Below, one piece after another: positions 1,399-14,798 of a stretch of DNA of 18,980 bases. Below the pieces are notes generated by a model. It did not search any database, was not told the origin of the DNA, and worked only from the letters and a program-made list of their open reading frames with translations. The stretch spans positions 1-18,980 of the forward strand of contig CAMYNZ010000016.1 of the NCBI GenBank assembly GCA_947259865.1, in the 5' to 3' direction. The stretch is from an uncultured Desulfobacterales bacterium. Its GTDB lineage: Bacteria > Desulfobacterota > Desulfobacteria > Desulfobacterales > G020354645. Position 1 is the stretch's first letter, and every line of letters starts with the position of its first letter. The position numbers were made by a program, and so were the translations under genes.

Positions 1399-1447
1399 GG
1401 TTCAAGGTTCAAGGTTCGGGGTTCAAGGTTCAGGGTTCAAGGTTCAA
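1399..1447. repeat. seven-copy heptamer array (GGTTCAA) in the dut leader
   Basis: Seven consecutive 7-base units start at 1399, 1406, 1413, 1420, 1427, 1434 and 1441. Five are GGTTCAA; the third is GGTTCGG and the fifth GGTTCAG. The period is exact over 49 bases. Seen from the dut strand the unit is TTGAACC. The array fills most of the 82-base gap between the M16 peptidase stop and the dut start and stops 7 bases before the dut ATG. Confidence 0.95.
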
Positions 1448-1473
1448 TAAAAAAAAACGCCCCGGCCCCTGAT
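1448..1473 (-). terminator. T-tract after the M16 peptidase gene (weak terminator candidate)
   Basis: On the minus strand the M16 peptidase stop is followed by a GC-rich run (GGGGCCGGGGCG) and then nine T residues. The T-tract and GC-rich lead-in resemble an intrinsic terminator, but I cannot draw a convincing stem: only 3 base pairs with a 2-base loop. It may slow or partly stop transcription before dut, or do nothing. Confidence 0.25.
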
Positions 1474-2739
1474 TCAGTTACTTAATATTTCCATAAATGC
1501 ATTTTCGTCTTTAAGTGCGCCCAGGGTGGTCATGCCAAGCTGATCGCCTTGTAAAAGAAACTCGGCGATGGTGATGATATCTTCGTCTGATACGGCGTTA
1601 ATGTGATCCACGACGGTTTCCAGTGCAATGTCATGGCCGAAGTTTATCTCATTTTGTGCGAGTCGAACCATTTGGCTATCGATACTTTCGGATGCCAGCA
1701 AGAGGTTGCCAATGGTATAATCTTTTGCATCTTTAAGTTCTGTTTTGTCAACACGGTCATTTTTGAGGGCCTTCATCTCTTTTATAATCAACTCTGCCGC
1801 TTTGAGGGCATTTTCCGGCTGGACGGCGACATAGGCCCCGAAAATACCGGTATCGACATAGGAAGATATATAGGAATAAACAGAATACGCCAGTCCTCTG
1901 CGCTCCCGAATTTTCTGAAAAAGCCTCGAACTCATGTTACCCCCCAGAATGGTGTTGAGCAGAGAAAAAGCATATCGTTTTGGATTGGTTATAGATATCC
2001 CCCGGGTTCCCAAACAGATATGGACCTGTTCCAGATCACGGTAGTGCATTCTCACTTGAGAGTGACACGCAGGCGTTATTCGCTCCGCAAGACCGTTTCC
2101 CTGTCTGGATGACTTAAAAACGGGGGAAACCAGGTCGACAAAATGCTGATGCGATATATTTCCGGCGGCCGATATGACGATATGCTCGGGTTGATAGAAG
2201 CGGTGAAAAAAATCTTTAATAATCGATGCGTTGAATCCGATGACATTTTCACGGGTGCCCAGAATCGAACGTCCCAAAGGGTTGTCCCCCCAATAGGTAT
2301 TGCCCGAAAGGATATGAACATACTCTTCAGGATTGTCTTCCACCATATTAATTTCTTGGAAGATTACCGGGCGTTCTTTCTCCACTTCTTTTTCATCGAA
2401 AATGGAATTTAGAAAAATATCCGAAAGGATATCAACCATTGTTTCCAGATGGGCATCAATCACTCTGGCATGGTAACATGTGTATTCAAAGCTGGTAAAT
2501 GCGTTGGTTTGTCCACCGATTGCATCAAATTCTTTTGCGATTTGAAAGGCCGTCCGTTTTTGGGTGCCCTTGAAAATCATGTGTTCGATCATGTGAGACA
2601 GCCCGTTTTCCGAAGGCAATTCATCCCGGGCGCCAACATTTACCCAGACGCCCATCGATATACTGCGAGCATAGGGCATCTTCTTGGTTAATATCCGGAT
2701 GCCGTTGTCAAGGGTGGTTTTACTTATCGCCTGGTCCAT
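1474..2739 (-). CDS. M16 family zinc metallopeptidase (processing-peptidase-like)
   Basis: A 421-residue single-unit M16B peptidase, related to mitochondrial processing peptidase beta and Bacillus YmxG/MlpA. The inverted zinc motif HXXEH is intact (HMIEH, H49/E52/H53) and the third ligand is probably E129 in [13 protein letters not shown]-terminal M16 half follows, with [22 protein letters not shown] near 266-287, the usual substrate-cleft signature. No signal peptide is seen. The ATG at 2737-2739 lies inside the pnp 3' end, giving a 20-base overlap, and is preceded by GGAAG six bases upstream, so translation is probably coupled to pnp. Placement next to pnp is also seen in other bacteria. 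The substrate is unknown. Confidence 0.92.
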
Positions 2740-4819
2740 GATCTTCTTCCAAAACCGCCTTATGGCTCAAACGTATTTTGCCATCCCGGTTGATTTCAAG
2801 TACTTTTACTTTAATTTTATCTCCCTCTTTGACAATGTCGGATACCTTGGTAACCCGTCGGTTGGCTAGCTGGGAAATGTGAACCAAACCATCCGTGCCC
2901 GGTAAAATTTGGACAAAGGCACCAAAATCCATCACTTTTTGAACGGTTCCCTCATAGATTCGGCCCACTTCAGGTTCCATGGCGATATCGTCGACCATCT
3001 TTTGAGCAGCCTCGGCATCTTCTTTACAGAAAGCGGCAATTTTAACGATGCCTGAATCTTCTATTTCTATCCGGGTATTGGTTTCGTTCTGAATCGATCG
3101 AATAATTTTCCCGGACGGTCCAATAATTTCCCGTATTTTATCCGGATTGATCTTTATCGTAATGATTTTGGGAGCATAGGGCGAAATTTCTTTGCGGGCT
3201 TCATTGAGCGTTTCTAACATTTTTTGTAAGATAAAAAGCCGTCCGTTACGCGCCTGTTCAAGCGCTTTTTCCATGATTTCCCGGGAGAGTTCTCGGATTT
3301 TAATATCCATTTGAAGTGCGGTAATTCCCTCTTTGGTTCCGGCGACCTTAAAATCCATATCACCGGTATGATCTTCGTCGCCGAGAATATCAGAAAGTAT
3401 AACCACACGATCCCCGTCTGAAACCAGACCCATGGCAATACCCGCAACAGGACTTTTTATCGGCACACCGCCATCCATAAGCGCCAGTGTTCCCGCGCAT
3501 ACTGTTGCCATAGATGAAGAACCGTTTGATTCCAGTACCTCTGAAACAATTCTGATCGTATAGTCAAAATTCTCTTTATCCGGTAAGCTTTTTTCCAGGG
3601 CTCTCGTAGAAAGACCCCCATGTCCGATATCTCGACGCGAAGGTCCTCCGATGCGCTTGACCTCACCAACCGAAAAAGGCGGGAAATTATAGTGAAGCAT
3701 AAATGGTCGATACTCCTCGCCGCTCAGGGTTTCCACACGTTGCTCGTCCTGGCCCGATCCCAGTGTCAAAACACCGAGAACCTGGGTTTCACCACGCGTA
3801 AACAACGCACTGCCGTGGGGCCGTGGGAGTATTCCGGCTTCACAGGTGATCGGTCGGATTTCATCAAATTTACGGTTATCGATACGTCGGCCTTCGTCCA
3901 GGACAAGGCCGCGGCATATGTTTTTTTGGAGGTCTTGTAAAATTTCGTATATTTCCTCTTTGCGCTCGCTATATTCTTCCCCGAAATTTTCTACAATTTC
4001 AGTTTTAAGATCGCGCAAAGAAGCGTAGCGCTTTAATTTTTCGGGTATCAAAATGGCTTCCCGCATGGGTGATTGGGCCAGAGATTCAGCCTTCCTGACC
4101 AATTCCTCATCCTTTGCAGGAGGGGCAAACGGGCGCTTGGGCACCCCGACGGCCTCCACCAATTTTTCCTGGAGTTCAATTAACGGTAGCATCTCCTTGT
4201 GTCCAAAGTATATGGCTTCGAGCATATCGGCTTCTTTCACAATATCGGCATTTCCCTCGACCATAACAATACCTGTCTTTGAACCTGCCACTATGAGATT
4301 GATATCTGAATTTTCCAATTGGCTGATGGTCGGGTTTATCAAATATTGACCATCTATTCGGCCGACCCGGACGCATGCAATAGGACCCTCAAAGGGGATA
4401 TCGGAAAGGGTAAGTGCCGCCGAAGCCCCATTCATGGCCAGCGTATCAGATTCGTTTTCCTGATCCATGGACAACACCGTTGCGATTACCTGGGTTTCGT
4501 AGCGGTAATTTTTGGGAAACAACGGTCGAATAGGGCGGTCAATCAGACGAGCGGTCAGTGTTTCCTTTTCGCTGGGTCGACCAATTTCACGTCTAAAATA
4601 GTTGCCCGGGATTCGGCCGGCGGCATAAATTTTTTCTTGATACTCAACGGTGAGAGGTAAAAAATTAGCAGGACGTTCCTCCCTGGCGGATACGACTGTG
4701 ACCAGCACAATGGTTTCTTCATATTGCACCACGACCGATCCGGAGGCCTGTTTGGCGACTTTGCCGGTCTGAATACTTAACTGTTTTCCGCCGATTTGGG
4801 CGTTTAATGAAATTTCCAT
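2720..4819 (-). CDS. pnp: polyribonucleotide nucleotidyltransferase (PNPase)
   Basis: PNPase, the 3'-5' phosphorolytic exoribonuclease that degrades mRNA and also adds heteropolymeric tails, usually as a trimer and often in a degradosome. The 699-residue protein shows the full family layout: RNase PH-like domain 1 (about 10-145), an alpha-helical linker (about 240-305), RNase PH domain 2 (about 315-530), KH (about 550-610, [15 protein letters not shown]) and S1 (about 617-688, [13 protein letters not shown]). The phosphorolysis aspartates are present in [14 protein letters not shown] (D481 and D487). The start has a good binding site, AGGAG with a short A-rich spacer. It follows rpsO after a 171-base structured gap, as in many bacteria, and the M16 peptidase gene overlaps its end. 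Confidence 0.98.
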
Positions 4820-4878
4820 ATTTTTCTCCTAAAATTAAGCGATCAGGGACTCAACTGCTTGATGGTCGCCTAATCTTC

Positions 4879-4973
4879 GCCATTAAATGGCATGATAGCC
4901 GCACCCAATTTTCAGCTCTCAGCGTCTGCCGCTGGGCAAAACTGGCGGGCATCACCTGGCTCGGTTTACCGAG
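4879..4973 (-). promoter_or_regulatory. cluster of three hairpins in the rpsO-pnp spacer
   Basis: Three perfect inverted repeats lie in the 171-base spacer: CTCGGT/ACCGAG with a 2-base centre (4960-4973), CAGCG/CGCTG with a 5-base loop (4920-4934), and GCCATT/AATGGC around a single A (4879-4891). None has a T-tract on the transcribed strand, so they are not intrinsic terminators. In E. coli the same spacer is an RNase III processing site used for PNPase autocontrol (established knowledge). A similar role here is inference. Confidence 0.5.
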
Positions 4974-4990
4974 TTTTCGGGTTCGGGTTA

Positions 4991-5260
4991 TTAGCGTTTA
5001 AGCCCGAGGGTTTCAATGATTGCGCGATACCGGTTGATATCCTTGTTCTTCACGTAGTTTAGCAGTCTGCGACGACGGCCTACCAGCATCAGTAATCCCC
5101 TCCTGGAATGATGATCTTTTTTGTGAACTTTTAAATGTTCGGTAAGGTAGGAAATCCGATGGGTGAGAAGACCGACTTGAACTTCGGGTGAGCCGGTATC
5201 ACCTTCATGCAGTTTAAATTGCTTAATGAGTTTCTGTTTTTCTTCCGTAGTATAAGTCAC
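4991..5260 (-). CDS. rpsO: 30S ribosomal protein S15
   Basis: S15, an early-assembly 30S protein that binds the three-way junction of 16S rRNA helices 20-22. The 89 residues match the standard length. The rRNA-contacting segment is intact: [17 protein letters not shown] (20-36), then [18 protein letters not shown] (39-56) and [10 protein letters not shown]. The start codon is GTG (5258-5260), preceded by a strong GGAGG at 5271-5275 with a 10-base spacer. It sits 28 bases after truB and before pnp, the usual truB-rpsO-pnp order. Confidence 0.98.
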
Positions 5261-5288
5261 TTTGTTTCTGCCTCCTTTTTAATGTTGG

Positions 5289-6203
5289 CTAGTTTGGGAA
5301 AACACAGCAGTAATCCAATCTATCATCTTCCGGCACCTGCCTCAATACTGCGATCAGTTGACGATCGGTATCCACCACCTTGATGAACGCTTCCGATCCC
5401 AGAGGGGGAATCGGGTTTAGATCTTTATGCCAAAGTAGTTTACCTTGCTTTATTTTTTGAGTCAATTTTTGATCCGCACAAACAGCCGGCATGCCGCGCA
5501 GGGCATCGACCATGTTTATCACTCGTTGTGAGATATCACCTTCGCAAGCCAGTTTTTCAAGCTCGGTTAAGGTTAACGATTCATCAATTGAAAAATCACT
5601 GCTTTCAATCCGCCGTAGTTCTTTAAGATGTCCGCCGCAGCCGAGAGACAGGCCGATGTCGGAACAAAGTGTTCTAATGTAGGTGCCTGCGGAGCAAAAA
5701 ACTTCAAAATTGATCAGTGGCAAACGTATCTCGAGAATATGGATATACGATATCTGCACACGCCGCGGTGGTTTCTGAATCGGGTTGCCTCTTCTGGCAT
5801 GCTTGTAAAGTGGAATCCCTTTATGTTTCAAGGCCGAATAAACAGGTGGAAGCTGTTGGATGGTTCCCTCAAATTTATGCATGGCGGTGTGAATCATTTG
5901 ATCGGAAAATCCGCTACGATCACTTGTGGCCACAATCTTTCCACTAGAATCCTGCGTATCTGTTTGTACTCCTAAATGAAGCACTGCCTTGTATTTTTTA
6001 TTCCCATTCAAGAAGAATCGGGCAAGTTTGGTCGCGCTGTTGAGACAACACACGAGAACACCCGTCGCAAAGGGGTCCAGGGTTCCGGTATGCCCTGCTT
6101 TATCGGCTCTGAAAATCCGTTTGACGGTCGTAACTGCTCTGGCGGAAGAGATATTAGCAGGCTTATCGATAACGATGATACCGCTTTGGTTAGGACTAAA
6201 CAT
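5289..6203 (-). CDS. truB: tRNA pseudouridine(55) synthase
   Basis: TruB isomerises U55 in the T-loop of most tRNAs and also helps tRNA folding. The protein has 304 residues. The catalytic motif GHTGTLDPFATGVL carries nucleophile Asp43. Other family blocks are KKYKAVLHLGVQTDTQD (70s-80s), QLPPVYSALKHKG (about 117-129) and FEVFCSAGTYIRTLCSDIG (about 166-184). A C-terminal PUA-like segment follows (about 230-300). The start ATG at 6201-6203 has only a weak GGGA upstream. It lies 19 bases after the DHH phosphoesterase gene and 28 before rpsO. Confidence 0.97.
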   Translation of the reverse strand: MFSPNQSGIIVIDKPANISSARAVTTVKRIFRADKAGHTGTLDPFATGVLVCCLNSATKLARFFLNGNKKYKAVLHLGVQTDTQDSSGKIVATSDRSGFSDQMIHTAMHKFEGTIQQLPPVYSALKHKGIPLYKHARRGNPIQKPPRRVQISYIHILEIRLPLINFEVFCSAGTYIRTLCSDIGLSLGCGGHLKELRRIESSDFSIDESLTLTELEKLACEGDISQRVINMVDALRGMPAVCADQKLTQKIKQGKLLWHKDLNPIPPLGSEAFIKVVDTDRQLIAVLRQVPEDDRLDYCCVFPN

Positions 6204-6222
6204 ATGTGGTTTTTTCCCGCTC

Positions 6223-7194
6223 TCACAGCTTGTCAGCCAAATCTTTTATTTCGGCCTTTAGTTCGGCAAGCGTCGTTTCGATGCCAAATCCGGCCGCGGT
6301 GGAATGGCCGCCCCCTCCATAAATCGCTGCTATAGCTGCTACATCCACCGAACCGTCTGATCGCAGACTAACATGATAATGATTGGAGTTTGTTATGTTT
6401 CCAGCACCGTTTATATTTTCCTGTATGAGTGTCGCCACACTCACATCTTCAATTCGTCGCGCATAATTAATCATACCATCGATGTCTTCCGGCTGGGTGC
6501 CTGTCCGCGCCAGCATATCCTGGGTGATGGTAATTATCGATAATTTACCGTTGTCCGATATCTCGATGGATTCAAGGGCCAGATTCAGGAGCTTGATACG
6601 CCCCAGAGAGTAAGTTCCATAAACATGTTGGGCCACATTGTGCGGTTTCACGCCCCTTTCTGTCATTTCTTCACAGATGGCGAAGGCTGCCTGGTTGGTA
6701 TTTGAAAAGCGAAACGAACCGGTATCGGTCAATATGCCGGTATAGATAGATGTGGCTATGCTGAGATCAATAGGCACGGCTAATTTTTTAATCAGGCGGT
6801 ATATGATTTCAGCGGTTGAACACGCAAGTGTATCTATAAGCTGGTAGTGACCAAAGCCTGTGTTGGTAACGTGATGATCAATGTTAATAACTACCGGGAC
6901 TTTATTTACTTCAGATAAACCCGGACCGATCCGCTCTAGATTACCGCAATCGAGGATAACGGCGGTATCAAACTGCATCGTCTCATCCATTCGCCGAGCA
7001 ATGCGCTCAACCGAGGACAAAAATCGATACACGGCCGGTATGGGACTATCGTTGTATAGAAAAACCTTTTTGTTGATAGCCTCAAGGGCCAGTCCCATAG
7101 CAATCAGAGATCCGACTGCGTCACCATCCGGATTGCTGTGCGAGGCGAGCAAAATATTGTTACTGTCAACGAGGTGGCTTAATATCTGTTTCAT
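6223..7194 (-). CDS. nrnA: DHH/DHHA1 phosphoesterase, NrnA-like (nanoRNase / pAp phosphatase)
   Basis: A 323-residue DHH subfamily 1 phosphoesterase. Metal-binding motifs are intact: SHSNPDGDAVGS (H19, D23, D25), ILDCGN (D82), NIDHHVTN (D106, H107, H108) and LTDTGSFRFSNT (D157). The DHHA1 domain ends with GGGGHSTAAGFG (about 293-304). The family degrades 2-5 nt RNAs and, in some members, dephosphorylates 3'-phosphoadenosine 5'-phosphate. Which activity dominates here cannot be read from sequence. The start overlaps the rbfA 3' end by 29 bases, implying coupling. Its place just upstream of truB-rpsO-pnp is sensible, because it would finish the oligoribonucleotides that PNPase leaves. Confidence 0.93.
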   Translation of the reverse strand: MKQILSHLVDSNNILLASHSNPDGDAVGSLIAMGLALEAINKKVFLYNDSPIPAVYRFLSSVERIARRMDETMQFDTAVILDCGNLERIGPGLSEVNKVPVVINIDHHVTNTGFGHYQLIDTLACSTAEIIYRLIKKLAVPIDLSIATSIYTGILTDTGSFRFSNTNQAAFAICEEMTERGVKPHNVAQHVYGTYSLGRIKLLNLALESIEISDNGKLSIITITQDMLARTGTQPEDIDGMINYARRIEDVSVATLIQENINGAGNITNSNHYHVSLRSDGSVDVAAIAAIYGGGGHSTAAGFGIETTLAELKAEIKDLADKL

Positions 7195-7540
7195 CTTCCG
7201 TGCTGATACGGTTGAGCAGTTTATCTATACCCGCTCCATAGTCAAAGGTTTCATCATAAAAAAATTGAAGATCCGGCATGTATCGCAACCCTAGTTGGCG
7301 GGCAAGAGTGCGCTTTACAAAACCTAATGCACTTTTAAACCCCTGGATCGCAGCCTGTTGGCGTTCTTCTCCTCCGGGTGTCGAAAAATAAATTCGTGCT
7401 AAGCGTAAATCCCGGGTCATTCTAACACCGGTTATCGTTATCATTTCTAGCCGGGGGTCTTTTACGCGTTTTTGTAATATGTCTGAAAGGGTCTTTTGAA
7501 TCAGACCGCTTATTCTGTCGGCCCGGGAAAAAGGGATCAT
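7166..7540 (-). CDS. rbfA: 30S ribosome-binding factor RbfA
   Basis: RbfA is a small KH-fold assembly factor for the 16S rRNA 5' domain, needed for late 30S maturation and cold adaptation. The 124 residues have the typical start FSRADRISGLIQKTLSDIL, then VKDPRLEMITITGVRMTRDLRLARIYFS and the C-terminal LGLRYMPDLQFFYDETFDYGAGIDKLL, which is the family signature. The ATG overlaps the ylxP stop in an ATGA (7537-7540), and its own end overlaps nrnA. RimP, IF-2 and S15 genes in the same operon share its role in 30S biogenesis. Confidence 0.96.
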   Translation of the reverse strand: MIPFSRADRISGLIQKTLSDILQKRVKDPRLEMITITGVRMTRDLRLARIYFSTPGGEERQQAAIQGFKSALGFVKRTLARQLGLRYMPDLQFFYDETFDYGAGIDKLLNRISTEDETDIKPPR

Positions 7541-7824
7541 AGGTTAAACATCTCCATTTCCGTATCTATGATTTCCGCCAGCCCCAGCGAATCGGCCATA
7601 TTAAAAATTTTATCTATCTTGGAATTTAACATTTTTTTATCATTTCCGACCAGAGAAAATCCTATTTCTGATCTTTGATAAATGTCGTTTGAACCAACCT
7701 CTGCCACCGATGCATTGAAATTGTTGCGCAGCTGGTTAATCATAGATTTTACAATCCTTCTTTTGCTTTTCAGAGAACGGCAATCATGAAGTCTTATCGT
7801 AATAATTCCAATACCGACAACCAT
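7537..7824 (-). CDS. ylxP: DUF503 / YlxP-like protein
   Basis: A 95-residue DUF503 protein. The conserved stretches are LHDCRSLKSKRRIVKSMI (12-29) and NASVAEVGSNDIYQRSEIGF (about 37-56). Family members (YlxP in Bacillus) lie between infB and rbfA and are linked to ribosome assembly, but the molecular activity is not firmly known. The start ATG (7822-7824) has no Shine-Dalgarno sequence; the 20 bases before it are almost purely A/T and contain TATAAT ending 7 bases before the ATG. An inverted 9-base repeat array fills the rest of the infB-ylxP gap. The stop overlaps the rbfA start by 4 bases. Confidence 0.92.
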   Translation of the reverse strand: MVVGIGIITIRLHDCRSLKSKRRIVKSMINQLRNNFNASVAEVGSNDIYQRSEIGFSLVGNDKKMLNSKIDKIFNMADSLGLAEIIDTEMEMFNL

Positions 7825-7840
7825 TTTTTTAATTATATTG

Positions 7841-7994
7841 GTTAAATTTTTTGCATTAGTTGAGTTAGTTGAGTAAGTTGAATTGGTTGATTAGGTTAAA
7901 TTGGTTGTATGGATTTCAGTCACGCCAAGGAAAGCAGTCCTGCTATTACAACCAATTCAACCAATAAAACCAATTGAACCAACCAAACCAATTC
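7841..7994. repeat. inverted nonamer array between infB and ylxP
   Basis: The left arm is a 9-base periodic run, with clear units at 7859, 7868, 7877, 7886, 7895 and 7904 (GTTGAGTTA, GTTGAGTAA, GTTGAATTG, GTTGATTAG and so on) and an outlying match in phase at 7841. The right arm is its inverse: AACCAATTC, AACCAATAA, AACCAATTG, AACCAACCA, AACCAATTC from 7950 to 7994. A 37-base unique centre separates them. AATTGGTTGTA (7899-7909) and TACAACCAATT (7947-7957) are perfect 11-base complements, so the transcript could form a long imperfect hairpin. The right arm ends 6 bases from the infB stop. Confidence 0.93.
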
Positions 7995-8000
7995 ATCTTC

Positions 8001-10676
8001 TTACTTAAGTTCGGGTTTAATTTCTTCCAGATAATAACTCTCAAGTACGTCGCCGACTTTGATATCATTATAATTTTCGATGCCAATACCGCATTCATAG
8101 CCAGTGGGTACTTCTTTGACATCGTCTTTGTAGCGCCGCAGAGAAGAATTTCGACCCTCATAGAGGACGACACTGTCTCTGAGGATCCGTATAAGCCGGC
8201 CCCGTTCAATTTTCCCTTCGGTAACATAACAACCAGCGATGGTGCCCACTTTGGGTACATGAAATATTTCACGAACATCCGCTTTACCGAGAATACGTTC
8301 TTCAAAAGTTGATGCCATCATACCTTCGATGGCATTCTTGACATCCTTGATGACATCATAAATGACGTTGTAAAAACGCATATCGACATTTTCTTCACTG
8401 GCCAATGCCTGGACTTTTGATGTGGGCCGAATGCTGAAACCGATGATAATTGCATCTGATACCGCAGCCAGTGAAACGTCAGATTCGGCTATAGTACCGG
8501 TACCCGAGTGGACAATATTGATTTTTACTTCTTCATTTGAAAGCTTTGTCAATGAATCCGAAAGCGCTTCGATGGATCCGTGTACATCTGCTTTGAGAAT
8601 AAGATTGAGGTCTTTTATATCCCCTTCTTGCATTTTTTCGTAAAGCTTATCAAGGCTAAGCCTGCTGGTTTTAGCCAGCTCCTTGGAACGATGTTTGAGG
8701 ATTCGGTGTTCACTAACCTGTTTGGCGTCTTTTTCATCTTTCAAGGCGATTAACTCGTCTCCCGCCATGGGAACACCGGACAGGCCGATTACTTCCACCG
8801 GTATAGAAGGTCCGGCGGACTCCACCTGGGCCCCGCGATCGTTTAGCAGCGCTCGCAATTTCCCATAATAAACCCCGCACACTACCGTATTGCCCACTCG
8901 CAATGTTCCCTCCTGAACAAGAACCGTTGCAACAGCTCCTCTGCCGGAATCTATTTTGGATTCAACCACATAACCCTTGGCCAGTTTGTTGGGATTGGCT
9001 TTAAGCTCCAGAACTTCAGATTGAAGTAATATCATTTCCAGCAGCTCATCGATACCGGTATTTTGTTTGGCGGATACTTTGACGAATATGGTGTCCCCCC
9101 CCCAGTCTTCGGCGGCCAGACCGACTTCTGCGAGTTCTCGATAAACGCGTTCAGGATCTGCATTGGATTTATCTATTTTGTTGACGGCAACGATTATGGG
9201 AACATCTGCCGCTCTGGAATGGTTGATCGCTTCCAGGGTTTGAGGCATTACGCCATCATCGGCGGCCACCACAAGCACAACAATGTCCGTCACACTTGCA
9301 CCGCGAGCTCGCATTGCAGTGAATGCTTCATGGCCGGGAGTATCCAGAAACGCGATTTGACCTTTGTCGGTGGTTACATGGTAAGCGCCGATGTGTTGGG
9401 TTATCCCGCCTGCTTCAATATCCGTAACTCTGGTTTTTCGGATAACGTCAAGAAGCGAGGTTTTGCCGTGGTCAACATGCCCCATGATCGTTACGACCGG
9501 TGGCCGCTCGATTAATTTTTCTGGATCGTCTTCTTCTGCACTTATGATAGCATCTTCTTCGAAGGTGGCTCGCTCGACCTCGTATTCGAATTCTGCCGCC
9601 ACCAGAACCGCTGTATCAAAATCTATCGTTTGGTTGACTGTTGCCATAACACCCATGGCCATAAGGGTTTTAATCATTTCACCGGCTTTTATGCCCATCC
9701 GCTTGGCTAAATCCGAAAGAACAATGGTCTCATCGATTTTAATCCTGCGTTTGATGGCTTTAGCAGTTGTAATCTGTGTTTTTTGGCCCGCAGTCGTTGC
9801 CCTGGCCTTAAGTCCTTTTTTGGATTTACGGCCTCTTCGGCCTCTGGCATAGAGGTCTTGACCTTCTACAACTTCCTTCCGGCGAAATGAAATCTTCTTT
9901 TTGAGAAATTTTCTATCTATTTCCAGTTCTTCTGTTTTTTTCTTGCGTCTCTTTTTCTTTGTATCTATGGCCGGGGGTTCCGTTGCCGGGAGGGGCTCTG
10001 CTGCTGCTGACTTTGCCTTTTTAGAGATTTTTTTAATTTTGCCTGCCGGTTTTACAACCTCGACCGTTTCTTCCGGAGCGGGTTTTGCTTTGGGTGTGAC
10101 CGGCAGTTGAATGATCTTTGCAGCAGCGTCTTTCTTTTTCGGTTTTTTAACTCCCTTTTTGGCCTTGATTTCAGCTGGCGCAGCCGGTTTTTCGGCTGTT
10201 TCTAATACGGCAGATTCTGGCCCTGTGTCAGGTTGTGTTTCTGTGGGCTCGGGTTCTCTGGTTTTTATCACTACGTCTTCTTGGGGGGCATCCTCGACAA
10301 CCGTCGCTTCTGCCGAGATGTTTTCTACCGCGGTTTCAGCGGCAGCTGCCTGGGTCTCAGCATCGGCTGGGGTCATGACGGGCGATTCAGCTTCTACCGC
10401 CAGCGTTTCGGCCTCAAGACCGGTTTCTGGTTCGGTTACTTTATCTAACGGAACCGTCGTTTTTCTTCTCCGGATAACGGTCGGTTTTATGCGAGTTTCG
10501 ATGACTTCTTCAGGTTGCTGGCCGTACAGATTGGCCTTTATTTGATCCACCGTAATTTGATCCAGAGAACTCATATGGCTTTTTATGGTAACATCCATAT
10601 CTCTTATCTTATCGATAAGTGTTTTGTTTGTCATGCTTAGATCTCTGGCAAGTTCATAAACTCTGATCTTAGCCAT
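8001..10676 (-). CDS. infB: translation initiation factor IF-2
   Basis: IF-2 is the GTPase that places initiator tRNA on the 30S subunit and promotes subunit joining. The 891 residues show an IF2_N module (1-53), a long Ala/Pro/Glu/Thr- then Lys-rich linker (about 75-300), a second IF2_N module (about 308-366) and the G domain: G1 GHVDHGKT (399-406), G3 DTPGHEA (445-451), G4 NKID (499-502), G5 SAK (535-537). Domains II, III and IV follow to the C-terminus, including the fMet-tRNA binding C2 region. A strong AGGGGG lies four bases before the ATG at 10674-10676. The long linker is common in Deltaproteobacteria and Myxobacteria. It follows nusA by 97 bases, the classical order. Confidence 0.98.
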
Positions 10677-10718
10677 CCATCCCCCTAAATTAGTTTTAAC
10701 TGAATTTATTTTTATTCA

Positions 10719-10772
10719 CCTTGACCTGAATACCCTGTCCCGCCGCAGTTCTTCGGCAGACTGCCGGGGGAT
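10719..10772 (-). promoter_or_regulatory. overlapping hairpins in the nusA-infB spacer
   Basis: Right after the nusA stop the minus strand reads CCCCCGGCAGTCTGCCGAAG, then ACTGCGGCGGG. A tight hairpin CGGCA-GTC-TGCCG is possible. Alternatively the upstream CCCCCGGCAGT can pair with downstream ACTGCGGCGGG (9 of 11 positions). The two are mutually exclusive. No T-tract follows. This may be an mRNA processing or stability element; the function is unproven. Confidence 0.35.
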
Positions 10773-12131
10773 TCATTTACTCTCAGCTTCGATACTATCT
10801 TCCGGAGGTGCCGGTCCAGACCAATCGCCGCCTTCAACCCCATTATCTGGTGACCCAGACTCAGCTTCATCAGGGATTTCTTCCGGCAGGCTTGCATTTG
10901 CGAGTGCTTCTCTGGCGGCAGCAATCAGTTTGCCGGCTTTTTCTCCACCAATTCCCCGAATTTGTATTAAATCTTCAATGTTGGCACTTGCTATTTCACC
11001 AGCAGAAAAAAAGCCCTTTTCGTATAGTGCATCGGCCATACTTATGCCGATACCGGGTAAGGCCACCAGTGTTTGATAGCCGGTTTGCATGGCTTCGCTA
11101 TATATAGATTCGCTTTTGACATCCAGATGCCAGCCGGTAAGTCTGGACGCCAGGCGCACATTCTGGCCGCGTTTGCCGATGGCAATCGAGAGAAATTCAT
11201 CCGGTACGATTACTTCCATCGAGTTGTTTTCTTCGTCAATGATTACCCGGGAAATTTCGGCCGGCGCCAGTGCATTGCACACAAATTTGGCTGCATCCAC
11301 GTGCCAGGAAATGATATCTATTTTTTCTCCCCGAAGCTCTTGAACTACATTTTGAACCCGGCTTCCTTTCATCCCCACACAGGCACCTACAGGATCGATA
11401 TCTGAATTGTTGGAAGCTACCGCGATTTTTGCGCGGATACCGGGTTCACGGGCTGCTCCCATAATTGTGACGATTCCCTCACTGATCTCGGGCACTTCCG
11501 TTTTAAAAAGATGAATCAAAAAGTTTGGATGTGTTCGGGATAAAATGATTTGAGGACCACGGCTGTCCTGCAGAACATCGAGTATATATGCTCTTATTCG
11601 ATCTCCGCGCCGATAAGTTTCTTTGGGGACTTGCTCACGAACCGGTACTATACCTTCCGTATGTCCGAGGTTAACGATAATATCGCCACGATCCATTCGT
11701 TGTACAATACCGTGCAGAACTTCACCCTTACGGTCGATAAACCCGGCATAGACAGCGTCTTTTTCGGCATCCTTTATTTTCTGGATGATTACCTGTTTTG
11801 CCGATTGGGCCGCAATTCTGCCAAAGGTAGATGCGTCCATTTTCGTGCCCAAACTATCGCCGATTTCACAATCAGGATCGAGTTTTCGTCCCTCCTCAAG
11901 GCTGATTTGAAGATCAGGTTCCGTGATCTCTTCGGCCACATCTTTAAACTGGAAAATTTCTATCTCTCCGGCTTCTTCATTGTGCTGTACTTCTATGTCT
12001 ATTTTGCTGCCGAATTTTTTCCTGGCAGCCGATTTGAGAGCTTCTTCAAGCGCTTTAATCAGGATTTCGCGGTCGATACCTTTATCTCTGCTAACCTGTT
12101 CAACGACACGTTTGATATCTGAAATATGCAT
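10773..12131 (-). CDS. nusA: transcription termination/antitermination factor NusA
   Basis: NusA binds RNA polymerase and nascent RNA and controls pausing, intrinsic termination and antitermination. The 452 residues contain the N-terminal polymerase-binding domain (1-125), S1 (about 135-200), KH1 (about 215-280, VGACVGMKGSRVQNVVQEL), KH2 (about 285-345, SIAIGKRGQNVRLASRLTG) and a helix-hairpin-helix pair (about 354-408, LVALPGIGISMADAL and LIQIRGIGGEKAGKL). An acidic tail ends the protein. The single C-terminal domain instead of E. coli's two acidic repeats is usual outside Gammaproteobacteria. GGAG with a 7-base spacer precedes the ATG. It lies 57 bases after rimP. NusA autoregulation through leader terminators is known in E. 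coli, and a leader terminator is present here. Confidence 0.98.
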   Translation of the reverse strand: MHISDIKRVVEQVSRDKGIDREILIKALEEALKSAARKKFGSKIDIEVQHNEEAGEIEIFQFKDVAEEITEPDLQISLEEGRKLDPDCEIGDSLGTKMDASTFGRIAAQSAKQVIIQKIKDAEKDAVYAGFIDRKGEVLHGIVQRMDRGDIIVNLGHTEGIVPVREQVPKETYRRGDRIRAYILDVLQDSRGPQIILSRTHPNFLIHLFKTEVPEISEGIVTIMGAAREPGIRAKIAVASNNSDIDPVGACVGMKGSRVQNVVQELRGEKIDIISWHVDAAKFVCNALAPAEISRVIIDEENNSMEVIVPDEFLSIAIGKRGQNVRLASRLTGWHLDVKSESIYSEAMQTGYQTLVALPGIGISMADALYEKGFFSAGEIASANIEDLIQIRGIGGEKAGKLIAAAREALANASLPEEIPDEAESGSPDNGVEGGDWSGPAPPEDSIEAESK

Positions 12132-12188
12132 CAGCTTTCTCCATTTTTGACCGGTTCGCTTCCCTGCAATTTCCGGCCCCTGAGTTAT

Positions 12189-12734
12189 CTATTTTCCTTT
12201 CCGGGAAGCCCCGCCCGTCAGGTCGGGATGCTTCACAAGTCGCGCCCTGGTTATATCCTGATAAGGTATTGCGACTGTTTTATTTTCGATAGACAGGGTG
12301 ACAACTCCCTCGGATATGCCCGACAGAATGCCCTTGAATTTTTTCTGTCCCTCAATGGGTCGGGATGTCTTAATTCTAATAAGATTTCCATCGAATCTCT
12401 TAAAGTCATCGATTTTGGCCAGTGGACGTTCAGGTCCTGGCGATGAAACTTCAAGGCTATACGCTCCGGAGCCTTCAAGATTTACATCCAGTATGTCACC
12501 GATCTGGCGGCTGATAAATGCGCAATCATCCAAAGTAATCCCGCCGGGTTTGTCAATATATAACCGCAGGGTTTTGCCGCCCTTCTCCGGTCCGTATTCA
12601 ACCAGTATCAATTCCAGACCTTCCGACTCACAGACCGGCTCGGCGATGTCCCACACCTGTGAGATGATATCTGAAATAAATTTTCCAGCGGTTATGGAAT
12701 TTTTAGTTTTCCGTTTTTTTTTATGTTTTCTCAC
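12189..12734 (-). CDS. rimP: ribosome maturation factor RimP
   Basis: RimP is needed for 30S maturation. Core signatures are LELILVEYG, LRLYIDKPGGITLDDCAFISRQIGDILDV and YSLEVSSPGPERPL, followed by the SH3-like C-terminal domain (from about KTSRPIEGQKKFKG). I chose the GTG at 12732-12734 (182 residues). A GAG stands six bases upstream, and the longer frame that opens at 12791 would run straight through an intrinsic-terminator-like hairpin (12765-12786). A TTG at 12735-12737 is an alternative. Even from GTG the N-terminus has a Lys/Arg-rich extension of about 20 residues before the conserved start. This is the first protein gene after the tRNA-Gly. Confidence 0.93.
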   Translation of the reverse strand: MRKHKKKRKTKNSITAGKFISDIISQVWDIAEPVCESEGLELILVEYGPEKGGKTLRLYIDKPGGITLDDCAFISRQIGDILDVNLEGSGAYSLEVSSPGPERPLAKIDDFKRFDGNLIRIKTSRPIEGQKKFKGILSGISEGVVTLSIENKTVAIPYQDITRARLVKHPDLTGGASRKGK

Positions 12735-12764
12735 CAAGAGCTCATTGCACCGCTTAAAATATAA

Positions 12765-12786
12765 AAAACGGGCTTCCGCCCGTTTC
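12765..12786 (-). terminator. intrinsic terminator/attenuator upstream of rimP
   Basis: On the minus strand AAACGGGC-GGAA-GCCCGTTT forms an 8-base-pair GC-rich stem with a GNRA-type loop (GGAA), running into TTTTTTATATTTT. It lies between tRNA-Gly and rimP, about 30 bases before the rimP start. It can end the tRNA transcript, and partial readthrough would feed the nusA operon. E. coli has terminators at the same place between metY and rimP (known). NusA control here is inference. Confidence 0.8.
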
Positions 12787-12840
12787 CTCAAACTTAGGTA
12801 TTGCTTCTGCAGTGGATCTAGTAAGCTTATCAGTTCATGA

Positions 12841-12870
12841 TTAATACCGTTTTAAAGTGATGAACTTCAA
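12841..12870 (-). promoter_or_regulatory. possible second promoter between tRNA-Gly and rimP
   Basis: On the minus strand TTGAAG (12865-12870) and TATTAA (12841-12846) are 18 bases apart, each matching 4 of 6 sigma70 consensus positions. It would start a leader that runs through the terminator hairpin into rimP. This is a pattern match only. Confidence 0.3.
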
Positions 12871-12928
12871 ATTACCCATGCTTACAAGCGCTACCCTCAA
12901 ATTCCAAAGAGGGAAGGCGGGCTTGCTA

Positions 12929-13004
12929 TGGAGCGGGCAACGAGATTCGAACTCGCGACACCAAGCTTGGGAAGCTTGTACTCTACCAACTGAGCTATGC
13001 CCGC
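12929..13004 (-). tRNA. tRNA-Gly (anticodon CCC)
   Basis: A complete 76-base tRNA gene including an encoded CCA. Acceptor GCGGGCA pairs with TGCCCGC. The D-arm is GCTC/GAGT with AGTTGGTA, and the anticodon stem is CAAGC/GCTTG with loop TTCCCAA, so the anticodon is CCC. The T-arm GCGAG/CTCGT carries loop TTCGAAT. Discriminator base U73, G1-C72 and C2-G71 agree with bacterial glycine identity. It precedes rimP-nusA-infB, where E. coli carries the initiator tRNA gene metY. Confidence 0.97.
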
Positions 13005-13021
13005 TAACCAATCTAATGTTA

Positions 13022-13048
13022 GTTATGACAAAAAAACAGGGTTGTCAA
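13022..13048 (-). promoter_or_regulatory. promoter of tRNA-Gly (and perhaps the rimP-nusA operon)
   Basis: On the minus strand a perfect -35 TTGACA (13043-13048) is followed after 15 bases by CATAAC (13022-13027), a 4 of 6 match to the -10 box. The start point would fall about 10 bases before the mature tRNA 5' end. The spacer is short, so the exact -10 is uncertain. Confidence 0.5.
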
Positions 13049-13204
13049 TATTTTTCCTAAATAAATTTAAAGCAATAGACCGACCGTTAGCCCAAAGGCA
13101 ATGGTCTGGTTTGATATTTTTTTGCCGCAAAAAGCACAAATTTCAGGATTAAACTCCTAAACCTAATGTTATGTCCCAGAAATAACTTTATAAAGTATTT
13201 TAGC

Positions 13205-13350
13205 AGTTTGAAAGGCATTTGCTCACACCGGTGACCATTTTGGGGACGCCAGCTGCAGCGGGGCTAAATCAAAAGAACTCGACCTCGCTTGTGCACGGGA
13301 CTCAGACAGCTTTTGATTTTTATCCGCCAACGGTCTCCGGTGGATTTACC
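13205..13350. other. GC-richer non-coding patch with a 10-base inverted repeat
   Basis: This patch stands out from A/T-rich flanks in the 609-base gap between the tRNA and the cyclase gene. It holds a perfect inverted repeat AAATCAAAAG (13266-13275) / CTTTTGATTT (13310-13319) around a 34-base GC-rich centre, plus a smaller ATCCGCC/GGTGGAT pair at 13322-13345. Two frames stay open across it (one reads KAFAHTGDHFGDASCSG after a stop, without a start codon), suggesting either a decayed gene end or a repeat unit. I do not recognise it. The rest of 13049-13613 shows nothing else beyond possible promoter boxes. Confidence 0.4.
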
Positions 13351-13470
13351 CGCCAATTAACACTTGATCTTTTTATTGTATATCCATATGCTGTAGATTT
13401 GATTTATCGAGTGGTGTTTTTCTCCACAATTTTTCATAGAATCCGGGCTTCCCTTCATACAATAAAACTC

Positions 13471-13498
13471 TTTAAATATCATACGGTTATGGTAAACT
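13471..13498 (+). promoter_or_regulatory. candidate promoter of the adenylate cyclase gene
   Basis: TTTAAA (13471-13476), a 16-base spacer, then TAAACT (13493-13498) preceded by TGG, an extended -10 pattern. Each box matches 4 of 6 positions. An alternative pair is TTGATC (13364-13369) with TATGCT (13387-13392) at 17 bases. Either would give a leader of over 100 bases. Confidence 0.28.
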
Positions 13499-13613
13499 CT
13501 AAACGCCAAATCGTTTGATGCAGCGCCCGATGGCACCCAAAATTCACCTTCCGGGTCCGCCTCAAAACATTTTCGGGTATCCGGGCGATGACTCTAGTCC
13601 CAGTGAGGGGTTA

Positions 13614-14570
13614 ATGAAAGCAAAAAATAAAAATCGGGTCCATTTTACTGACCAAATGGTGTTGATCGGGTTTGGAATTGCGGCAGTTTACTGGATCCTT
13701 GACTCCATAATGGCTATTTTTTTGTCCCAGGAAGGTTATTTTTTGCAACGAATGATCGGTCTGGATATGAGCGAAATCTGGACTCGATTAATCGTTTTGT
13801 GCCTTTTTATTATTTTCGGATCACATGCCCAATTTACGATCAATGAGCGCAAGACGATGGCCAAAAAACTTGAAAGTGACCGCCGAACCCGGGAACGATT
13901 TCAAAGGCTGCTGTCACCCGATTTGGCAGAAATGGTGGTATCTGGAAAGTTAAAAGTAGAAAAAGGTGGTCAAAACCGGGTGGCGACAGTGGTTTTTATT
14001 GATATACGCGGTTTTACGGCGATGAGTGAAAATGCGCAACCAGCGGAAGTCCTGCAGATGCTCAACGAGTATTTTGAAATGGTCGTGGAAATCGTATTTC
14101 GCTACGAAGGAACGGTGGACAAGTTTATGGGTGACGCCATAATGCTTATCTGGGGCGCCCCTCTCACCCATGGTGACGACCCTATCCGTGCCGTTCAGGC
14201 CGCTCTCGAGATTAACGCCGAAATGACTGTATTTAATAAGAGACGAAGATCCGAAGATAAGACGGAAATCGGAATTGGCATTGGGGTAAATACGGGTAAT
14301 TTGGTTGCAGGTTATATGGGCTCTACCCGAGCAATGAGCTATTCTGTTATTGGTGACACGGTGAATACGGCATCCAGATTATGCGCATCCGCTAAACAGG
14401 GGCAGATCCTGATTTCTGAAAACACACTCAATTATTTGGATGGAAAATTTGAAGTATCAGAAATCGAACCGCTTCAGGCCAAGGGTAAGTTTAATCCGAT
14501 CCAGGTGTACAACGCCATCTCCCAAAAATCCTCCGCCAGCCCTCTTAAAACCGATGCTAACTGTCGCTAA
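13614..14570 (+). CDS. membrane-anchored class III adenylate cyclase
   Basis: This gene converts ATP to cyclic AMP at the inner membrane. The 318 residues contain two transmembrane helices (about 15-37 and 58-76), a short charged linker with the RFQRLLSPDLAEMV signature (95-108) and a class III cyclase domain (about 122-300). Catalytic residues are present: metal aspartates D130 (FIDIRGFT) and D174 (KFMGDAI), adenine-selecting K170, transition-state N251 and R255 (GDTVNTASR). The usual second adenine-contact position is Ser244 instead of Asp, as in subclass IIIb. I chose the ATG at 13614 because GAGGGG lies just before it. A longer frame opens at 13515 (TTG) or 13518 (ATG) but adds an unconserved 33 residues. 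It stands alone on the plus strand between two minus-strand blocks. No sensor domain is present, so the input signal is unknown. Confidence 0.93.
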   Translation: MKAKNKNRVHFTDQMVLIGFGIAAVYWILDSIMAIFLSQEGYFLQRMIGLDMSEIWTRLIVLCLFIIFGSHAQFTINERKTMAKKLESDRRTRERFQRLLSPDLAEMVVSGKLKVEKGGQNRVATVVFIDIRGFTAMSENAQPAEVLQMLNEYFEMVVEIVFRYEGTVDKFMGDAIMLIWGAPLTHGDDPIRAVQAALEINAEMTVFNKRRRSEDKTEIGIGIGVNTGNLVAGYMGSTRAMSYSVIGDTVNTASRLCASAKQGQILISENTLNYLDGKFEVSEIEPLQAKGKFNPIQVYNAISQKSSASPLKTDANCR

Positions 14571-14652
14571 ATCCCCGCCTGTCTCCAACTCTGGCAAAAC
14601 CCGCTGAGCAGTATTTTTTGTTGGTTCGGGTAAGGGGAACTTGATTGTAGTG

Positions 14653-14688
14653 GCCGACTTCGCCATACTAGCCTATGGCTACGACGGC
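14653..14688. repeat. intergenic palindromic element
   Basis: GCCG (14653-14656) and GCCATA (14662-14667) are mirrored by TATGGC (14674-14679) and CGGC (14685-14688), with symmetrical 5-base interior segments and a 6-base loop. The symmetry is too regular for a chance spacer. It lacks a T-tract, so it is more like a REP-type or small palindromic repeat than a terminator, though it lies between convergent genes where either would fit. Confidence 0.7.
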
Positions 14689-14723
14689 TGATTTGGCGTG
14701 AGGGATTACTGGCAAAAGCAATT

Positions 14724-14798
14724 GTTACGGGTTACGTGTTACGAGTTGCGTGTTCAATTTTCCAACCCGTAACGCGTAACACGCAACTGGCAACAGGC
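14724..14798. repeat. inverted heptamer array between cyclase and merR genes
   Basis: The left arm has 7-base units from 14724: GTTACGG, GTTACGT, GTTACGA, GTTGCGT, GTTCAAT. The right arm is inverted, from 14764: AACCCGT, AACGCGT, AACACGC, AACTGGC, AACAGGC. GTTACGGGTT (14724-14733) is perfectly complementary to AACCCGTAAC (14764-14773), and GTTGCGTGTT (14745-14754) to AACACGCAAC (14778-14787). These pairings cross each other. The array ends 9 bases from the merR stop. Confidence 0.93.

Follow-up and report, generated by a model that had tools for sequence, protein, structure and literature searches.

Arrays of 7-bp tandem units (heptads) form a real class of spacer elements that is widespread and changes fast. 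We consider them probably to be the slippage-prone arms of small, non-autonomous, MITE-like elements that are moved in trans. Relatives of the organism studied here show dispersed copies, inverted ends, some flanking direct repeats, presence/absence differences and length change by whole heptads. The window, by which we mean the whole 18,980-nucleotide stretch analysed, comes from an uncultured Desulfobacterales bacterium and holds three short-period arrays reported in a first-pass annotation. All three are real and beyond chance, and consist of the following features.

1400..1448, + strand: array 1, seven GTT heptads (GTTCAAG, GTTCGGG, GTTCAGG), single arm
7859..7906, + strand: array 2, left arm, GTT period of 9 bp, GTTGAATTG-like units
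7907..7949, no strand: array 2, centre, 43 bp separating the exact 9-bp runs
7950..7995, − strand: array 2, right arm, 9-bp units, inverted
14724..14754, + strand: array 3, left arm, heptads GTTACGN/GTTGCGN, GTT every 7 bp
14755..14763, no strand: array 3, centre, 9 bp separating the two arms
14764..14794, − strand: array 3, right arm, inverted heptads in the dialect of the left arm, GTT from 14794 to 14764

The seven GTT starts of array 1 run from 1400 to 1442 at a spacing of exactly 7 bp. In array 2, weaker units extend the left arm back to about 7840, and the right arm has a − strand GTT every 9 bp from 7988 to 7950. The pattern GTT(N4GTT)x4 matched the window five times, against no match in 200 dinucleotide shuffles, and a 9-bp GTT pattern also matched five times, against a shuffle mean of 0.01 and a largest value of 1. 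The second, inverted arm that had been claimed for two of the arrays belongs to arrays 2 and 3, array 1 having one arm only; folding as single-stranded DNA exceeded that of shuffles for array 2 (z −4.48) and array 3 (z −2.75), and array 1 gave no fold. All three lie between long open reading frames (ORFs), which upholds their placement in spacers near gene ends or starts. From these ORFs we take the spacer of array 1 to be bounded by a dut start and an M16 peptidase stop, that of array 2 by a DUF503 start and an infB stop, and that of array 3 by the stops of a cyclase gene and merR. The long ORFs of the window are presumably dut, M16 peptidase, pnp, rpsO, truB, nrnA, rbfA, DUF503, infB, nusA, rimP, cyclase, merR, pheT, pheS and rplT. 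Rfam gathering matches in the whole window came to one tRNA and nothing else; this gene (12932-13004, − strand) lies between those for rimP and the cyclase, and its anticodon, read by eye, is TCC (glycine).

Related loci (numbered L, their genomes G) were reached through NrnA, which gave 21. The closest, L001, belongs to G001, a 5.57-Mb Deltaproteobacteria MAG with 80% identity in NrnA. Its infB spacer contains degenerate GTTC-like arms, as judged by eye, and its cyclase-merR spacer is short and has no arms; at approximately 80% identity, such spacer differences do not show insertion. The GTT(N4GTT)x4 pattern is present in 17 of the 21 NrnA-linked genomes. The annotation had also supposed that similar heptamer runs occur in other Deltaproteobacterial genomes, and in a sample of 297 genomes from the phylum of G001 the pattern gave 5244 matches in 136 genomes. 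The reversed pattern, used as a control, gave 1575 matches in 111 genomes, but is not a clean null because TTG-anchored heptads also exist; GTT matches outnumbered control matches in 114 genomes and the converse held in 40.

An anchor-free scan, which counted any triplet recurring four or more times at an exact period of 5-15 bp, was applied to 39 usable stretches (565 kb) from 39 GTT-positive genomes, L180 being dropped as all N. At period 7, it returned 144 runs against 3.8 in first-order shuffles, bearing out the proposed excess over shuffled DNA; at other periods it returned 5-28 runs against 3.2-6.6. Earlier samples gave 57 period-7 runs against 3.3 for G001, 15 against 0.3 for G026 and 23 against 1.3 for G099, of which 10, 6 and 15, respectively, were GTT-anchored. 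The claim of one grammar with different units thus extends to related genomes, in which period-7 arrays occur in many dialects. The proposed GTT start holds in part: GTT/AAC is the commonest single triplet, followed by GCT, AAA, TTG and AAT with 9-11 each, but it is not universal, anchoring 15 of 76 period-7 arrays (15 of 144 runs), a share that is itself not neutral because the sample genomes were picked for GTT matches. Other anchors with a 7-bp period include GCT, TTG, AAT, GAT and more. Among arrays with exactly three invariant columns over five units, the columns were contiguous in 43 of 103, where 20% is expected (p = 4e-7), so the tendency towards three fixed plus four free positions is real, with an anchor that need not be GTT. 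Period 7 is the rule, and GTT is a favoured anchor, not an obligatory one. A perfect heptamer microsatellite of one fixed unit, like the STRR heptamer repeats of cyanobacteria, is ruled out by the 181 different tetramers that follow GTT among 969 units.

To describe the layout of the arms, we used a non-redundant set of 177 GTT arrays with four or more units, drawn from random stretches and from loci chosen for their arrays. Within 150 bp, an inward inverted partner was found for 77 arrays, an outward partner for 12 and a same-direction partner for 15 (these three groups overlap), with none for 80; both arms of one pair may each count. Inward partners therefore make up 77 of the 89 inward-or-outward pairings, and the inverted two-arm layout recurs well beyond the window. 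The centres of two-arm elements range from overlap up to 127 bp. Integron attC sites, which run RYYYAAC ... GTTRRRY, have the wrong orientation for most pairs (77 GTT>..<AAC against 12 AAC<..>GTT).

The annotation had suggested slippage coupled to template switching as the generating process; of this, slippage is partly supported, by length changes in steps of 7 bp. For the 30 of 53 two-arm elements with same-genome controls, the variable letters of an element's own arms matched at 0.55, against 0.61 for control arms taken from other elements of the same dialect in the same genome, a control that favours similar arms. The arms are therefore mostly not inverted copies of each other, and copying by template switching is no general rule; contrary to this picture, the left and right arms of family B in G004 (see below) are near-identical. 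Of the arrays between two genes (n = 133), 103 have co-directional neighbours, 16 convergent and 14 divergent ones; the corresponding numbers of spacers in G001 are 303, 65 and 75. A further 20 of the 177 arrays fall 'inside' ORFs and 24 at their edges, a result of the simple ORF-calling script, which gave overlapping ORFs. Between co-directional genes, one-arm arrays comprised 19 sense and 30 antisense cases. This strand bias is not clear, and with the tRNA as the sole Rfam gathering match of the window, an RNA-level role was set aside.

The different units of the arrays had been taken as an argument against transposable elements. That argument is not supported: three genomes contain dispersed, multicopy, array-bearing elements of approximately 86-330 bp. 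These have inverted ends, some copies are flanked by short direct repeats, and several are inserted relative to close kin. Terminal inverted repeats were seen as CCTRRRTTRAGCGG ends, TTAACCCTACAACG ends and the pair CAGGGCTTCTGACCTG / CAGAACTCCTGACCTG; CAGRRCTYCTGACCTG is another element end sequence. In G001, the end CCTRRRTTRAGCGG has 12 exact sites and bounds a family of gene-less elements of 86-210 bp, in which GTTC heptads start at the inner edge of the end. Ten delimited sequences reduced to seven distinct copies, since L106 and L107 (at 2473) were misdelimited and L091/L099 are one duplicated segment. Exact 5-bp duplications flank two of the seven (GCTGA and TTAAA); four have only offset matches, possibly chance because shifts of up to 3 bp were allowed, and one has none. 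Copies differ in the left arm, which has about two to five GTT units, and hardly at all in the right arm; the core is missing in two. Allowing one mismatch gave 44 CCTRRRTTRAGCGG sites (14 for the reversed pattern), none paired at a gene-sized distance, so that no autonomous partner was seen in G001. A MITE may outlive its autonomous partner, and for that reason our claim is of MITE-like elements and not of a named family. Array 1 of the window matches L102 of this family at 95% over 41 bp, in the heptads only, and nothing beyond heptads was seen to tie the window arrays to dispersed copies.

Among 20 stretches fetched from G004, picked partly for repeated pattern matches, 14 have at least 50 bp in common with another. 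Family A is approximately 230 bp long, with GTTRCGN heptads inside and TTAACCCTACAACG ends; TTAA occurs on both sides in three of the four copies having both ends, but is palindromic and may be part of the end. Family B has GTTCACA/GTTGTCG heptads near its ends, and family C has GTTCGAT heptads with AATTT on both sides in 2/2 copies. One kind of heptads is thus carried by families with unlike ends.

Turnover was followed among three close relatives, whose loci L005, L006 and L009 share 94-97% identity over aligned parts around nrnA. Orthologous spacers from G005 and/or G006 were retrieved for 17 arrays of G009, of which 16 were comparable; L224, at a contig edge, was dropped. L227, L228 and L235 were not queried, and L222, L237 and L238 had no orthologue set; L221 and L211 lacked the right anchor. 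Eight of the 16 are absent in every relative examined (one or two each): L231, L233, L236, L239 and L203 in both G005 and G006, and L232, L234 and L209 in the sole relative examined. At three of these spots, the relative carries other sequence (L236 in G006, L239 and L209). L220 is missing in G005, and G006 has a two-arm array of like dialect with a different centre. At L223, L226 and L229 (3/16), the gap in the relative is filled by different heptads or different sequence; the dialects at one spot are CCCGTAA and CCAGTRN for L223, and GTTRCGN and GATACTG-like for L229. L221, L230, L211 and partly L225 are common to relatives with altered length or centre. Between close strains, then, arrays appear, vanish and change unit, in the comparison of orthologous spacers that the annotation had proposed. 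Absence from both G005 and G006 may be one old loss because these genomes are sisters by identity; at sites with flanking duplications, the duplications argue for insertion.

At L232, AATTT flanks a 304-bp insert on either side and is present once at the empty site. The insert has inverted ends (CAGGGCTTCTGACCTG / CAGAACTCCTGACCTG) and appears to occupy the loop of an ACAGGAT palindrome. The ends of L234 are similar, and AATTT adjoins them as judged by eye, but G006 lacks a stretch larger than the element between these apparent ends. The insert at L231 measures 298 bp, lies between TAAATT and TAATTT, and reads as one two-arm array nested within another. L233 places 334 bp between a stop codon and the next start codon, with four bases lost and no target-site duplication seen. 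L236 has a 2-bp duplication only, and inserts replace a few bases at L203 (approximately 150 bp) and 38 bases at L220 (94 bp).

Further repeats occur in the same genomes. An element of approximately 260 bp without evident heptads, starting with GGCAACCGGTAATAAAATTTGAAAACG, occupies one nrnA-pnp spot in L005 and in L009, is missing there from L006, and recurs in L260 and, in part, in L230. In G009, L227 and L228 have a common stretch with ACGGATTTT- and ATCTGTGT-type units oppositely oriented and flanked by GTTC heptads, resembling a two-arm element of longer period. A CCCAATTGAG...CTCAATTGGG hairpin adjoins GTTRCGN heptads in L226, L233 and L238 of the same genome.

We consider it probable that elements of approximately 90-330 bp settle in gene spacers, a typical one having two inverted arms around a variable centre. 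The tandem units of the arms are degenerate, 7 bp long (sometimes 8-9 bp) and often of the form GTT plus four variable bases. A transposase encoded elsewhere would move the elements; the heptads could serve this enzyme as binding sites, or be a part of the ends that is tolerated and prone to slippage. The arms would lengthen and shorten through slippage, one-armed forms may be remnants or partial copies, and the three arrays of the window would belong to the same class as the elements of the relatives. The insertions at L232, L231, L203 and L233 relative to close kin and the 77 inward pairings of 89 argue for mobility; the lack of exact duplications at most G001 copies and the 80 of 177 arrays partnerless within 150 bp argue against it.

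Growth in place, by slippage or unequal exchange in 7-bp steps from seeds, with seeds in palindromes giving the inverted layout and no mobility, seems rather unlikely to us as the whole explanation. It accounts for the infB spacer, where L005 exceeds L006 by three GATACTG-type heptads, for L230, whose left arm start is kept in three genomes as length and centre vary, and for the variable unit number within the G001 family. It fits poorly with inserts of 94-334 bp missing from relatives and with multicopy dispersed elements bearing inverted ends, and slippage alone leaves the favoured contiguous three-letter anchor unexplained (43 of 103 against the expected 20%). Mobility alone, for its part, does not explain why families with different ends have heptads in common. 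A dedicated enzyme or replication process might write or rewrite 7-bp arrays in hairpin-forming spacers and mobile elements, a proposal made because elements with unlike ends have a common three-fixed-plus-four-free grammar and because kin have different dialects at one spot (L229, L223); we hold it to be distinctly unlikely.

A third reading, like the one proposed for Geobacter metallireducens, has selection keeping the arrays as sites bound by an IHF/HU-like protein, either a chromosome-wide regulator or a DNA-bending protein. The 'predicted global regulator binding sites' of that genome fall into classes 1-3, in sets of 16-48 copies, with tandem units of 7-9 bp (GTTGCTYN, TCTCCGTS[Y] and MTYCTGA); classes 1 and 2 form opposite-strand pairs at variable distance, and class 3 is drawn looped likewise (Aklujkar et al. 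2009, PMC2700814). Compared by description, the likeness lies in multicopy, paired 7-9 bp tandem units in a genome long counted with the Deltaproteobacteria. The Geobacter sites differ in being confined to one genome with a fixed consensus per class and in being read as IHF/HU-type sites, and the available part of their description mentions neither inverted ends nor empty sites nor a change of dialect (PMC2700814). Their paired layout and the contiguous anchors of our arrays favour regulation; the loss of eight of 16 comparable arrays from all examined relatives at 94-97% identity, the unlike dialects at one spot (L229, L223) and the unclear strand preference (19 sense, 30 antisense) make it very unlikely. 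An origin as REP-type palindromes, with REP-associated tyrosine transposases (RAYT, Y1 family) as the movers, is barely credible. Y1_Tnp (PF01797) was found in 19 of 20 array-rich against 11 of 20 array-free genomes (Fisher p = 0.008, a value that takes no account of kinship or of genomes having been chosen by array count), but is lacking in array-rich G101, and around 20 Y1 genes period-7 arrays number 0.40 per 10 kb, compared with 1.0 for 80 other stretches, most of them in other genomes. RVT_1 occurs in 12 of 20 array-rich and 6 of 20 array-free genomes, with kinship uncontrolled; neither RAYT nor a reverse transcriptase is in all array-rich genomes, and both were rejected as a required partner.

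The preferred reading, MITE-like elements with heptad arms, has partial parallels. Eukaryotic foldback elements (Tm1, Galileo) likewise have a variable middle between inverted arms that consist of short tandem repeats, but are much longer. The heptamer repeats TAACTGA, GGGNATC and STRR are similarly 7-bp, tandem and intergenic; they differ in having single fixed units, and the portions of their descriptions available to us mention no inverted arms with dispersed ends. In Beggiatoaceae, strain differences in TAACTGA heptamers are mostly 7-nt steps, and larger intergenic heptamer assemblages occur (PMC4679880). GGGNATC repeats are known from Xanthomonas and Nostoc, and a heptamer excess in many bacteria was noted earlier, with detailed study lacking (PMC4692102). 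BrickBuilt of Porphyromonas gingivalis is, similarly, an intergenic MITE with inverted ends and internal tandem repeats, but holds a minisatellite of a single 23-nt unit, in a single species, and the available text describes no inverted heptad arms (PMC4596501). Among open-licence papers, none was found that describes inverted heptad arms together with dispersed ends and turnover. The paired-repeat layout seen in one Geobacter genome in 2009 (PMC2700814, as far as its available text goes) and the known heptamer excess here meet in one class of spacer element. Why the period is seven can be tested on close genomes, in which sites are full, empty or switched, and the turnover warns against taking such sites as conserved regulation. 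Runs of six GTT heptad units also occur in contigs of a viral collection, IMG/VR, in at least 120 stretches (L340-L419).
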